Shown: piece after piece, positions 30,627 to 34,416 of the stretch
Numbering within the stretch: the stretch's first letter is position 1
How the letters are laid out: each line of letters begins with the position of its first letter
From: Dyella sp. BiH032
Lineage (GTDB): Bacteria > Pseudomonadota > Gammaproteobacteria > Xanthomonadales > Rhodanobacteraceae
Length of the DNA: 64,000 bases
Assembly (NCBI RefSeq): GCF_031954525.1
Contig: NZ_CP134867.1
Span: 3,100,001-3,164,000, forward strand
Direction: 5' to 3'
Notes under the pieces: model-generated
What the model saw: the letters and a program-made list of their open reading frames with translations, nothing else
What the model was told of the DNA's origin: nothing
Databases searched by the model: none
Position numbers and translations under genes: made by a program

Positions 30627-31752
30627 TTACGCGTCGACGCGCTTGGCGCCAGCATCCAGGCCGGCTTTCAGGCTGGCCTCGACGAATTCGTCCAGGTCGC
30701 CGTCCAGCACTTTCTGCGTATCCGAGCGCTCGACGCCGGTGCGCAGGTCCTTGATGCGGCTTTGGTCGAGCACGTAGTTGCGGATCTGGCTGCCCCAGCC
30801 GATGTCGGACTTGGTCGCTTCCAGCGCGTCCTTCTCGGCATTGCGCTTCTGCAGCTCGATCTCGTACAGCTTGGCCTTCAGCATCTTCATCGCGCGGTCG
30901 CGGTTGGCATGCTGGCTGCGTTCGGTCTGGCAAGCCACCACCACGCCCGAAGGCACGTGGGTGATACGCACCGCGGACTCGGTCTTGTTGACGTGCTGGC
31001 CGCCCGCGCCGGAGGAGCGATAGACGTCGGTCTTCAAGTCCGCTGGATTGATCTCGATGTCGATGTCGTCGTCGACTTCCGGCGACACGAACACCGAGGT
31101 GAAGCTGGTGTGGCGGCGGTTGTCGGAATCGAACGGGCTCTTGCGCACCAGGCGGTGCACGCCGATCTCGGTCTTCAGCCAGCCATAGGCGTAGTCGCCT
31201 TCCACGCGGAACGTGGCGGACTTGATGCCGGCCACGTCGCCGCCGCTGGCCTCGAGCAGCTCGGTCTTCCAGCCGCGCGACTCGCACCAGCGCAGGTACA
31301 TGCGCAGCAGCATCTCGGCCCAGTCCTGCGCCTCGGTGCCACCGGCGCCGGCCTGGATGTCCACGAAGGCGTTGGTGGCGTCCATCTTGCCGGAGAACAT
31401 GCGCTGGAATTCCAGCTTGCTCACCTGCGCATCGAGCTTGTCGAGGTCGGCGACGATGGATTGCACGGTGGCTTCGTCGTTGTCGGCGACGGCCATCTCC
31501 AGCAGATCGGCCGAATCGGCCAGGCCGGCGGTCAGCGAGTCGATGCCGCTGACGATGGTGTCCAGGCGGGCGCGTTCGCGGCCCAGTTCCTGCGCCCGCG
31601 GCGGATCGTCCCAGACGTTGGGGCTTTCCAGCTCCCGGCTTACTTCTTCGAGACGCTCACGCTTGGTGGCGTAGTCAAAGATACCCCCTAAGCGATTCGA
31701 CGCGGCCCTTGAGGTCCGCGATCTTCGCAAGGATCGGATTGGTTTCGATCAT
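30627..31752 (-). CDS. prfB: Peptide chain release factor 2, with programmed +1 frameshift
   Basis: RF2 (374 residues after frameshifting) releases peptides at UGA and UAA. The first 25 codons, from the ATG at 31752, end at an in-frame TGA at 31675-31677. Translation continues in the +1 frame from 31676. The second part has the GGQ peptidyl-hydrolysis motif ([17 protein letters not shown]) and the stop-recognition region containing [15 protein letters not shown] upstream of it. The expected tripeptide for RF2 stop recognition (SPF) is present in [10 protein letters not shown]. The frameshift is the conserved autoregulatory switch, not a sequencing error. Confidence 0.96.
31674..31689 (-). promoter_or_regulatory. 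prfB: prfB programmed frameshift site
   Basis: On the minus strand AGGGGG, a Shine-Dalgarno-like stimulator, is followed by TAT, then the slippery CTT-TGA-C at codons 25-26. This is the canonical RF2 recoding sequence with the correct three-base spacing. Confidence 0.97.
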
Positions 31753-31961
31753 GGATGGATGTGGCTTGGAAATGGCCCGAAAGGATAGCAGGCGAGGCGC
31801 TTTCGCGGGTAGGTTGAGCGGGCGCGAGCAAATTGCGGCAAGCGCGCCGGGCGGCCGCTGCCACGGCGGCCGGCAGCTGCCTCGGCGCACCGCCGGGGCG
31901 GTGGTGGGTAGTGGTCCGTCGGGCATCACCCTCGGGCCCGCCCCCACCGACGCCGCACCGG

Positions 31962-33644
31962 CTAGCCCAGCGCCTGCTGGTGCACGCCGCGGACGGCGCG
32001 GCCCGACGGGTCGGCCGCGACGGCGAACGCCGGGTCCCACGCCAGGGCCGCGGGGGACGAACAGGCGATCGACTTGCCGCCCGGCACGGTGGCCGCGCAG
32101 GCCTCGCCGGGGAAGTGCTGCTCGAAGATGCGGCGATAGAGATAAGCCTCCTTGGTCGCCGGCGGGTTGTGCGGGAAGCGCGTGGATGCGGCGGCGAATT
32201 CGCGATCGCTGATCACCTGCTCGGCATGCGCCTTCAGGCCATCGATCCAGCCGTAGCCGACGCCATCGCTGAACTGCTCTTTCTGCCGCCACAGGATCGA
32301 GTCCGGCAGCGCGCCCTGGAAAGCTTCGCGCAGCACGGCCTTTTCGATGCGGCCATGGCCGGCCATCTTGTACTTGGCATCCAGCCCCATCGCGACGTCC
32401 AGGAACGCCAGGTCGAGGAACGGCACGCGCGCCTCCACGCCCCAGGCCATCATCGCTTTGTTGGCACGCAGGCAGTCGAAGCTGTGCAGCGCGTCGAGCT
32501 TGCGCACGGTCTCCTCGTGGAAGGCTTCGGGCGACGGTGCTTTGTGGAAATACAGATAGCCGCCGAAGATCTCGTCCGAACCTTCGCCCGAAAGCACCAT
32601 CTTGACGCCCATCGCCTTGATGCGGCGGGCCAGCAGGAACATCGGCGTGGAGGCGCGGATGGTGGTGACGTCGTAGGTTTCAATGTGGCGGATCACTTCG
32701 GGCAACGCGTCCAACCCTTCCCAGAAGGTGTACACGAAACCGTGATGCACGGTACCGAGCGCATCCGCCGCGATCTGCGCGGCGGCCAGGTCCGGCGAGC
32801 CCTCAAGACCGATCGCGAAAGAGTGCAGGCGCGGCCACCAGGCTTCGCTGCGATCGTCGTCCTCGATGCGCTCGCGGGCGAAGCGCGCGGCGCAGGCCGC
32901 CACCAGCGAAGAATCGAGGCCGCCGGACAGCAGCACGCCGTACGGCACGTCGGTCATCAGCTGGCGATGCACGGCCTGCTCGAAGGCATCACGCAATTCG
33001 GCCGGCTCCACCTTCTGGCCGTGCGTGACTTCGTAGGAGCGCCAGGTCTTGCGGTAGTAGCGCACGACTTCGCCGGTCGCGCTGTCGTACACGTGTCCCG
33101 GCGGAAACGCCGAGACGTCGGCGCAGACGCCGACCAGCGCCTTCATCTCGGAAGCCACGCATAGTCGCCCTTCCGCGTCGTGCCCCCAGTACAGCGGGCA
33201 CACGCCGATCGGATCGCGCGCGATCAGATAACGCTGCGCAGCGCTGTCCCACAGGGCGAAAGCGAAGATGCCGTTGAGCTGTTTGATGCCGCGCGCGATG
33301 AACTCCTCAGCGCCCAGCTCGCGGTACAGCGCGTTGATCACCTCGCAGTCCGAGCCGGTGGTGAAGTCGTAGCGGCTGGCCGCGCGCAGTTCGCGGTGGT
33401 TGTAGATCTCGCCGTTCACCGCCAGGGCCAGCTCATCGTCGCGCGAACGCAGCGGCTGCGAGCCGCTGGCCGGGTCCACGATGGCCAGGCGCTCATGCAC
33501 CAGGATCACGCCGGCGTCCACGAAGACGCCGCTCCAGTCCGGACCGCGGTGGCGCTGGCGCTGCGACAGCTCCAGGGCCTGGCGGCGCAAGGCGGCCAGG
33601 TCGTCGCCGGGTTGCAGGTCGAACATGCCGAAGATGGAACACAT
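31962..33644 (-). CDS. asnB: Asparagine synthase B (glutamine-hydrolysing)
   Basis: A 560-residue enzyme converting aspartate, glutamine and ATP to asparagine. Cys2 is the glutaminase nucleophile (MCSIFGMF), and the N-terminal amidotransferase domain has RHRGPDWSG and NGEIYNHRELR. The synthetase domain (about 210-510) shows the PP-loop VLLSGGLDSSLVAA, then SGEGSDEIFGGYLYF. The length suits the bacterial AsnB type. It is the last gene of the lysS-prfB-side cluster on this strand, and its 5' region holds a leader peptide with Asn codons and a terminator, described separately. The spacing from the terminator T-run to the ATG is about 47 bases. Confidence 0.96.
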   Translation of the reverse strand: MCSIFGMFDLQPGDDLAALRRQALELSQRQRHRGPDWSGVFVDAGVILVHERLAIVDPASGSQPLRSRDDELALAVNGEIYNHRELRAASRYDFTTGSDCEVINALYRELGAEEFIARGIKQLNGIFAFALWDSAAQRYLIARDPIGVCPLYWGHDAEGRLCVASEMKALVGVCADVSAFPPGHVYDSATGEVVRYYRKTWRSYEVTHGQKVEPAELRDAFEQAVHRQLMTDVPYGVLLSGGLDSSLVAACAARFARERIEDDDRSEAWWPRLHSFAIGLEGSPDLAAAQIAADALGTVHHGFVYTFWEGLDALPEVIRHIETYDVTTIRASTPMFLLARRIKAMGVKMVLSGEGSDEIFGGYLYFHKAPSPEAFHEETVRKLDALHSFDCLRANKAMMAWGVEARVPFLDLAFLDVAMGLDAKYKMAGHGRIEKAVLREAFQGALPDSILWRQKEQFSDGVGYGWIDGLKAHAEQVISDREFAAASTRFPHNPPATKEAYLYRRIFEQHFPGEACAATVPGGKSIACSSPAALAWDPAFAVAADPSGRAVRGVHQQALG

Positions 33645-33691
33645 GGTTGACGCTCCTAGGGGGTGGTGACGCGCTAGAACTCAAGGGCAGG

Positions 33692-33726
33692 AAAAACAAA
33701 AGGGCCCGCGGTTGGCGGGCCCTTTT
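33692..33726 (-). terminator. Attenuator terminator in the asnB leader
   Basis: A perfect 12-bp stem (arms 33715-33726 and 33698-33709, each AAAAGGGCCCGC or its complement) with a 5-base loop, followed by G and five T. It lies 26 bases past the leader-peptide stop and about 50 bases before asnB, so it must be overcome for asnB to be transcribed. Confidence 0.9.
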
Positions 33727-33770
33727 GCGTGGATTCGAGACTTTTTTCGTGTCTACACGCCGGCCCACCC
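33714..33770 (-). promoter_or_regulatory. Predicted antiterminator pairing for the asnB leader
   Basis: GGUGGGCC in leader codons 38-40 (33762-33769) can pair with GGCCCGCC (33714-33721), which overlaps the 5' arm of the terminator: eight pairs, one of them G-U. A competing pairing joins CGGCC in codons 24-26 to GGCCG in codons 39-41. Together these reproduce the 1:2, 2:3 and 3:4 arrangement of amino-acid attenuators. Drawn by hand; energies not computed. Confidence 0.65.
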
Positions 33771-33881
33771 GTCGATGCGGGGATTGTTATTGGCGTTGTT
33801 ATTCAGGCCGTTCGCGTGCGCACGCAGACCTGCCGCGTAGGCGGCGAAGGCGGAGCGCTGGCTGGCGAAGGAGGAAGACAT
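33753..33881 (-). CDS. asnB leader peptide, asparagine-rich
   Basis: A 42-codon open frame upstream of asnB. Residues 24-33 hold seven Asn codons (NGLNNNANNN), and the peptide ends at Val42-TAG. Its role would be to report asparaginyl-tRNA supply. A ribosome stalled at these codons leaves codons 37-40 uncovered for antiterminator pairing, while a ribosome that finishes permits the terminator. Twelve bases lie between the last Asn codon and GGGTGGGCC, suitable for a stalled ribosome. No Shine-Dalgarno precedes the ATG, and the transcript may be leaderless. Leader peptides of this kind are known for other amino acids; for Asn this is my inference. Confidence 0.8.
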   Translation of the reverse strand: MSSSFASQRSAFAAYAAGLRAHANGLNNNANNNPRIDGWAGV

Positions 33882-33888
33882 GGGGCCG

Positions 33889-33918
33889 ACTAAAGCACAG
33901 CCTTGCTGCGCCGCGCAA
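33889..33918 (-). promoter_or_regulatory. Weak candidate promoter for the asnB leader transcript
   Basis: TTGCGC and TTTAGT on the minus strand, spaced by 18 bases. Initiation about seven bases past the second box would place the first transcribed base at the leader ATG, a leaderless message. Both boxes are poor matches. Confidence 0.35.
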
Positions 33919-33961
33919 GAGAAATTTTTCTCCCCCTTCCCTCGGTCCGCCGTCCGCATAG

Positions 33962-34041
33962 CGTGGGTGAGCACAGCGAACCCCAACGTGGCGCCCCCGC
34001 GCGAGGTTCGCTGGGTTTCGCCGGTGGCTCGCCCCAACCTA
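33962..34041. repeat. Partial relative of the dispersed repeat end (copy C)
   Basis: Contains GGGTGAGCACAGCGAACCCC and ends in GCTCGCCCCAACCTAC, one base different from the ends of copies A and B (GCTCACCCCAACCTAC). The rest of the repeat is missing. The stop codon of the next gene lies within its last bases. Confidence 0.55.
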
Positions 34042-34416
34042 CGTCTCAGTCTTCGGGGCACTGACCCAGGTCCGCGCCTCGTCCAGTTGCGCTGTCTCGT
34101 ACAGGCGAAATTCCCCTGGGGAGAGGAAGCCCAGCGCCTTGGCCAGATTGCGCATCCAGCCCACGTCGGTGACCAGGGCGGCGCGCTCCCAGCCGCTGAA
34201 ATGGCGGAAGCCGAGCTTGGCATCGTCCCACATCGCGCCGGGGTCGAAGCCGGTGAAGTCCTGGTCGATATGGAAGATCACGCGCAGCTTGCGGTTGAGC
34301 GCGAACGCCGCTTCGATGTCGGGAATTACCACCCGCTCGTAGTCGGCCGCGGTGACTTGGTTGTGGGCGGTGAATCCGATCACGCCCGGCGGCAGGCCGG
34401 TCATCTGCACGATCAT
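34039..34416 (-). CDS. STAS/SpoIIAA-like domain protein
   Basis: A 125-residue single-domain protein. The pattern GVIGFTAHNQVTAADYERVVIPDIEAA, quoted here in part as VIGFTAHNQVTAADYERV, then LRVIFHIDQDFTGFDPGAMWDD and LVTDVGWMRN, matches the SpoIIAA-like (DUF3478) family. Members lack the phosphorylatable serine motif of true anti-anti-sigma factors, and their role is unclear. The ATG at 34416 has GGGAG upstream. It stands between the molybdopterin-domain gene and the asnB leader, with separate spacing on both sides. Confidence 0.85.
   Translation of the reverse strand: MIVQMTGLPPGVIGFTAHNQVTAADYERVVIPDIEAAFALNRKLRVIFHIDQDFTGFDPGAMWDDAKLGFRHFSGWERAALVTDVGWMRNLAKALGFLSPGEFRLYETAQLDEARTWVSAPKTET

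Follow-up and report, generated by a model that had tools for sequence, protein, structure and literature searches.

Expression of the asparagine synthase gene asnB found in the window (the whole 64,000-nucleotide stretch of Dyella DNA that was analysed) is very probably controlled by a ribosome-mediated transcription attenuator that senses charged tRNA-Asn. The anatomy of this element, its conservation and its complementarities are observed, and the regulatory reading is what these sequence features argue for. The components, namely a short asparagine-rich reading frame, an intrinsic terminator, alternative RNA pairings and a promoter-like site, are listed together with the presumed target gene in Table 1.

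In the proposed mechanism, RNA polymerase would start on or beside the leader AUG, and a ribosome would load directly at the 5′ end of this leaderless transcript. When Asn-tRNA is ample, the ribosome would reach the stop codon and cover segment 2, the terminator (pairing 3:4) would form, and transcription would stop short of asnB. Under Asn-tRNA shortage, the ribosome would stall on the asparagine run, leaving segment 2 free to pair with the 5′ arm of the terminator (pairing 2:3), and the polymerase would read through into asnB. Of 61 genomes, 59 have an asparaginyl-tRNA synthetase match over the cut-off, the window's own among them, so that charged tRNA-Asn can follow free asparagine. In the same genome no match to asnA was found; a second protein of the asparagine-synthase family is encoded there (G000:C1:4455859-4457604; 460 bits to TIGR01536, over the cut-off), and asnB may therefore not be the only asparagine source.

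Table 1. Features of the asnB leader region, in window coordinates.
Feature	Position	Strand	Basis or remark
Promoter-like site, TTGCGC (33918-33913), 18-nt spacer, TTTAGT (33894-33889)	33889..33918	-	By eye
Asparagine-rich leader peptide frame, 42 codons, stop TAG	33753..33881	-	Sequence read; ATG at presumed transcript start
Regulatory codons, 7 Asn codons in 10 (residues 24-33)	33783..33812	-	Sequence; core Asn kept in relatives
Candidate 1:2 hairpin, CCCG-CAUCGA-CGGG, would occlude segment 2	33768..33781	-	In minimum free energy fold
Segment 2, antiterminator 5′ side, GGUGGGCC	33762..33769	-	Pairing analysis, folding
Inner antiterminator helix, 5′ side, GCGUG, adjoins stop codon	33756..33760	-	Pairs with CACGC 33727-33731; fold
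Segment 3, antiterminator 3′ side, GGCCCGCC	33714..33721	-	Overlaps terminator 5′ arm and first loop base
Intrinsic terminator, stem 33728-33715 / 33709-33696, loop CAACC, then TTTT	33692..33728	-	Hairpin scan, folding
asnB, glutamine-hydrolysing asparagine synthase B, presumed regulated gene	31962..33644	-	NF006949, 848.9 bits (cut-off 499)

Architecture of the leader locus

The 42-codon frame with seven asparagine codons, described in a first-pass annotation of this DNA, is present where that annotation had placed it. It encodes the peptide MSSSFASQRSAFAAYAAGLRAHANGLNNNANNNPRIDGWAGV*, with asparagine at residues 24, 27-29 and 31-33. The ATG lies 7 nt 3′ of the promoter-like −10 element TTTAGT, and the complete stop-to-stop frame spans 174 codons, 42 of them counted from this ATG. 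The assignment of the downstream gene to asnB, made in the same annotation, is borne out by its protein family match (Table 1). Its closest named relatives, among the best 80 of 491 loci in the named collection, are the AsnB proteins of Dyella sp. SG609 and Dyella marensis, with 96% identity.

The terminator hairpin with its T-run, also claimed to precede asnB, was confirmed by folding. Its stem contains 14 pairs including one G-U, or 12 if only the inner, perfect part of A/T and G/C pairs is counted, and encloses a 5-nt loop. The hairpin starts 24 nt 3′ of the leader stop codon and ends about 50 nt before the asnB start. Folded alone, it reaches −27.3 kcal/mol, compared with a shuffle mean of −11.8 kcal/mol (z −5.4).

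Distribution of the leader upstream of asnB

The protein search for AsnB gave matches in 43 of the 61 relative genomes, in a named collection, of which the best 80 of 491 loci were taken, in at least 171 of 250 genomes of the order, among the matches listed, and in 4 of 274 genomes of the class. With a further 100 upstream regions picked from the matches listed, mostly outside the window's family, the collection comprised 210 upstream regions, 196 of which differ from one another over the final 300 nt. A leader was defined as a frame with at least four Asn in 12 codons, located no more than 460 nt from asnB. Such a frame precedes asnB in 148 of the 196 distinct regions, distributed over the window's family (f1; 87) and its genus group (g11; 12), f2 (45), f3 (3) and f8 (1); Dyella, Rhodanobacter, Frateuria and Fulvimonas are among the named genera. 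The same definition was satisfied by 23 of 1480 shuffled regions and by none of 148 reverse strands. Furthermore, a terminator hairpin with a T-run follows within 150 nt of the last Asn codon in all 148 leaders. Among 740 shuffled controls, 130 gave any terminator, eight reached the score of the weakest leader and none reached the median. The Asn run and the terminator, the combination to be expected in relatives according to the first-pass annotation, thus recur together before orthologous asnB in three families.

The 48 regions counted as misses are heterogeneous. Three of them (L070, L074 and L109) comprise only 123, 60 and 250 nt of upstream sequence, respectively, and four (L027, L101 from Dokdonella, L114 and L157) carry, as judged by eye, weaker leaders with three Asn codons in ten, an ATG and a terminator. 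Another four (L158, L159, L209 and L210) are without the element and precede divergent AsnB proteins of about 63-66% identity. The remaining 37 belong to f10 (22), f8 (11, of which two comprise just 95 and 325 nt), f5, f6, f11 and one outgroup. In a second sample of nine f10 and six f8 regions (L244-L258), none of the 15 contained an Asn leader. Among 25 asnB regions from class and phylum outgroups (L219-L243), nine contain an Asn-rich frame under the same definition, two of these nine with a terminator-like match, and no common architecture is seen; these outgroup regions are poorer in G+C than the leaders (median 0.44 vs. 0.62). Altogether, the element tracks the asnB ortholog of three families, with the f8 locus L191 as one possible outlier, and more distant asnB lineages are without it.

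Two side observations concern individual loci. In L191, a lone member of f8, a short frame MFAIYNTINTTNNRLLRSAGSF and a GCCCGCTT/AAGCGGGC terminator precede asnB, possibly representing a reduced or independent Asn leader. In the outgroup f150, L239 and L240 show four consecutive Asn codons in frames that end 26 and 41 nt upstream of asnB, with no terminator match, an arrangement that may be due to chance.

The co-occurrence of Asn run, antiterminator and terminator in three families bears directly on a rival reading, with a constitutive terminator, transcription of asnB from a promoter of its own and a merely incidental Asn-rich frame. Many Rhodanobacter-type relatives offer space for such a promoter, with well over 100 nt separating the leader stop from asnB (83-441 nt across this group, compared with 86-118 nt in Dyella-type leaders). 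Against this, besides the co-occurrence itself, stand the promoter-like site directly 5′ of the leader and the gap of only some 50 nt between terminator and asnB in the window, where a stricter generic consensus scan found no promoter within 33600-34100, although the same scan misses the leader promoter too. An independent asnB promoter with an incidental frame is hence judged very unlikely.

Probable selection on asparagine and on leader translation

Control by a translating ribosome predicts that the leader frame is read, and the pattern of conservation along it is informative in this respect. In the Dyella-type leaders (n = 33), amino acid identity before the run is 0.08-0.37 at 21 of 22 positions and 0.62 at one. 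At two core Asn positions, amino acid identity is 0.88 and 0.83 and codon identity 0.46 and 0.63, with AAT and AAC mixed; the last Asn served as alignment anchor and is hence 1.00 by construction. The same trend, less sharp, is seen in Rhodanobacter-type leaders (21 positions before the run at 0.09-0.28, the Asn two before the anchor at 0.89, other Asn at 0.36-0.55) and in f2 leaders (early positions at 0.10-0.26, three core Asn positions at 0.68-0.83). The leaders together contain 547 AAC and 472 AAT codons. The core asparagines are kept while their codons alternate and the N-terminus drifts, which argues for selection on asparagine and hence on translation; we infer that the leader frame is translated. 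Leader lengths of 19-45 residues result from an automatic start choice, and for at least L116 and L123 the ATG selected in this way lies too far upstream to be plausible.

These data also help to weigh a different kind of sensor, in which the RNA itself would recognize a ligand, a tRNA or a protein, as in a riboswitch, a T-box or a protein-binding leader, and the frame would not be the sensing part. The RNA structure is indeed conserved, and T-box control of asparagine genes is common in Firmicutes. Retention of the core asparagines in the protein under alternating AAT and AAC codons is, however, not required of a ligand-binding RNA. In addition, a search of 12 of the 148 leader loci returned no Rfam family at gathering score, and the window region 33400-34100 gave seven Rfam hits up to an E-value of 5, all below gathering score and none of them a T-box. 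Direct sensing by the RNA is consequently regarded as extremely improbable. A sub-threshold match to Thr_leader (22.3 bits, gathering score 55) covers the terminator region only and was set aside.

Promoter and probable leaderless start

The leaders share a conserved promoter, with a TTGC-like −35 element and a −10 element bearing T at both ends. In 134 of 147 leaders, the best-scoring −10 sits 6 or 7 nt 5′ of the chosen leader ATG. A combined promoter score of at least 8 is reached by 140 of 146 leaders (f1, g11, f2 and f3) compared with 129 of 1264 reverse-strand ATGs, a comparison that favours the leaders since the best of several ATGs was taken for each. A stricter promoter pattern is found in 92 of 148 leaders and in 10 of 1714 controls. 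Shine-Dalgarno-like 4-mers precede the leader ATG in only three of 147 cases vs. 121 of 147 for the asnB ATG. Transcription usually begins about 7 nt after the −10 element. Given the 6-7-nt spacing between −10 and ATG, the mRNA therefore probably begins at or beside the leader AUG, and translation of the leader would probably be initiated in the leaderless mode. This probable leaderless start had gone unnoticed in the first-pass annotation.

A small leaderless mRNA of about 190 nt with a strong terminator, as predicted here, resembles Sinorhizobium meliloti trpL as described in one report (PMC7298713). On this ground, either product, the Asn-rich peptide or the short RNA ending at the terminator, might act in trans, like the reported peTrpL/rnTrpL of S. 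meliloti, besides or instead of control in cis. This is considered unlikely, the N-terminus of the peptide not being conserved, which speaks against a peptide function beyond the Asn run.

Alternative RNA pairings

The first-pass annotation had proposed that the 5′ arm of the terminator can instead be paired with a segment located 3′ of the Asn run. This pairing holds: GGUGGGCC and GGCCCGCC are complementary in the window, the 61-nt antiterminator piece takes the 2:3 fold (z −3.4; equalled by none of 200 shuffles), and the pairing is kept in each large clade. It is formed by GGUGGGCC and GGCCCGCC in Dyella-type leaders, by GGCGGGCC and GGCCCGCC in Rhodanobacter-type leaders and by CGGCCGAUGCGGGU and ACCCGCAUCGGCCG in f2. 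Paired cells amount to 98.5%, 96.3% and 82.3% in these three groups, respectively, compared with 24-58% in slid controls, and to 97.1% in g11, which has a six-pair version of the 2:3 helix.

Compensated changes in this helix, a further expectation of that annotation, were found in one family and were lacking in another. In f2, double changes affect 7 of the 14 pairs (slid helices, 1-5), and the number of doubly changed cells was reached by one of 500 shuffles, which, here and below, ignore the relatedness of the sequences and give fractions that are not probabilities. In f1, the 2:3 pairs show no double changes and all shuffles do as well, leaving covariation uninformative in the window's family; the same applies to g11. 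For comparison, 1, 5 and 6 terminator pairs show double changes in the Dyella-type, Rhodanobacter-type and f2 groups, respectively. Pairing energies were also compared between own and exchanged partners. Segments from f2 pair at −24.8 kcal/mol with their own terminators, at −22.3 kcal/mol with random f2 partners and at −17.8 kcal/mol with f1 terminators. Segments from f1 give −21.4 kcal/mol with their own and −14.5 kcal/mol with f2 terminators, and their own partners are no better than random ones from the same family (−22.1 kcal/mol).

Additional structures were considered. The inner helix at the stop codon is paired in 96.0% of cells in Dyella-type and 89.4% in Rhodanobacter-type leaders (slid, up to 63%), and is without support in f2, where 67.1% of cells are paired and 196 of 500 shuffles reach that level. 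A competitor of the antiterminator had been suggested in the form of CGGCC (codons 24-26) pairing with GGCCG; this element is not conserved, since among the 33 Dyella-type leaders only 8, the window included, have CGGCC anywhere in the twelve codons that precede the last Asn. The CCCG/CGGG hairpin just 3′ of the Asn run (pairing 1:2) is a better candidate, though a weak one. It is paired in 80.7% of cells in Dyella-type leaders (slid, 29-52%) and 75.6% in Rhodanobacter-type leaders, with 61 of 500 and none of 500 shuffles pairing as well, respectively, and slid versions contain as many double-changed pairs. In the window, the 1:2 stretch folded alone adopts a different, weak structure (z +1.7).

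Folding as a function of ribosome position

The effect of the translating ribosome on these pairings was modelled by taking each codon in turn, deleting everything 5′ of the leading edge of a ribosome placed there and folding the remaining RNA as far as the terminator loop, an antiterminator being counted from five pairs upward. For the three large groups, this model gives an antiterminator in 85-100% of leaders as long as the ribosome is located within the Asn run (the last Asn codon apart). At the last Asn codon it is predicted in 64% of Dyella-type, 50% of Rhodanobacter-type and 100% of f2 leaders. Three to six codons past the run, the proportion is 4-20%, and at the commonest stop positions 0-2%, again in the three large groups. 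In g11 (n = 12) the values are 100% over most of the run, 50% at its last two positions, 75-83% at one to two codons past it, 50% at three and 0% from four onward.

In a first model, which masked only the 12 nt following the last Asn, the antiterminator formed in 20 of 33 Dyella-type, 22 of 54 Rhodanobacter-type, 3 of 12 g11, 3 of 3 f3 and 44 of 45 f2 leaders. For a ribosome placed at the stop codon, the same model predicted the terminator in all Dyella-type (33/33), Rhodanobacter-type (54/54), g11 (12/12) and f3 (3/3) leaders, but in only 26 of 45 from f2. Only in g11 is the 1:2 hairpin a dominant structure in the equilibrium model. The antiterminator still forms in the three large groups when the ribosome is far upstream, and low expression without translation is therefore not predicted by this equilibrium model. 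Coverage of segment 2 by a ribosome that has left the Asn run thus appears to be the main basis of the switch.

Relation to known attenuators

Ribosome-mediated attenuators are known in proteobacteria for the trp, his, thr, leu, ilv and phe operons. In Firmicutes, asparagine T-boxes sense tRNA-Asn charging and bind the tRNA directly, without leader translation. They resemble the proposed system in sensing this charging for the control of asparagine genes, and no T-box match is found in the window's leader region or, at gathering score, in the 12 leader loci of relatives. In anatomy the asnB leader resembles the proteobacterial amino acid attenuators, which, as set out in a theory paper (PMC1183508), also combine a short leader frame, a stretch of codons for the amino acid produced, alternative pairings, an intrinsic terminator and a biosynthetic gene 3′ of it. 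The asnB leader differs from them in its codon (Asn), its target (asnB) and its probably leaderless start.

Leaderless leaders with similar features have been described elsewhere. In mycobacteria, polycysteine short frames are leaderless and ribosome speed senses cysteine (Canestrari et al., 2020, doi 10.1111/mmi.14498, as cited in the review PMC9031893). These frames share with the asnB leader the leaderless start and the run of a single codon, and differ from it in sensing cysteine instead of asparagine. The parts of a 2005 comparison that treat mycobacterial cys leaders report no conserved terminator hairpin (PMC1262725), in contrast to the terminators of all 148 asnB leaders. In the S. meliloti trpL attenuator (rnTrpL/peTrpL), the RNA begins with the leader AUG (PMC7298713); this Trp leader has 14 residues and reported trans functions, whereas the present leaders have Asn codons and 19-45 residues.

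A literature search covering titles and abstract openings found no Asn-specific attenuator among the matches listed, which does not prove its absence in print. Likewise, term searches in the main text of a premature-terminator survey (PMC2965389), the Actinobacteria comparison (PMC1262725), the attenuation theory paper (PMC1183508) and a histidine study (PMC9413887) returned no passage on asparagine. The class of attenuator is known, and its specificity for asparagine appears to be new and undescribed. The proposal of the first-pass annotation that the element is a tRNA-Asn-charging sensor for asparagine synthetase is well supported as far as sequence evidence reaches. If it is correct, asparagine would join the amino acids that control their own synthesis by leader peptide attenuation, and the regulation of asnB would be explained in several related families (Dyella, Rhodanobacter, Frateuria and others). 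The element, whose start is conserved and probably leaderless, would offer a natural system in which to study how leaderless initiation couples translation to early transcription, and the leader could serve as a reporter of tRNA-Asn charging.

Asparagine runs elsewhere in the genome

The 5.25-Mb genome was searched for runs of three plus two Asn codons (AAY-AAY-AAY-N(0-9)-AAY-AAY). The three-plus-two pattern gave seven matches at five distinct places, one of them the leader. At the other four, 82-306 codons separate the run from the stop, compared with 16 in the leader, and the next 150 nt contain no terminator hairpin at any of them, whereas one is present at the leader. No wider regulon of Asn-run leaders is seen in this genome at the sensitivity of the three-plus-two pattern. 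The stop-to-stop frames at these four places comprise 557, 806, 292 and 112 codons, and the 292-codon frame is as Asn-dense as the leader (7 in 12). The leader architecture in the window is not a chance product.

A separate observation in the vicinity of asnB concerns prfB, the gene of release factor 2, which is split over two frames (window 30627-31730 and 31675-32292, both on the minus strand) and presumably reflects the classical programmed +1 frameshift of that gene, which it resembles.
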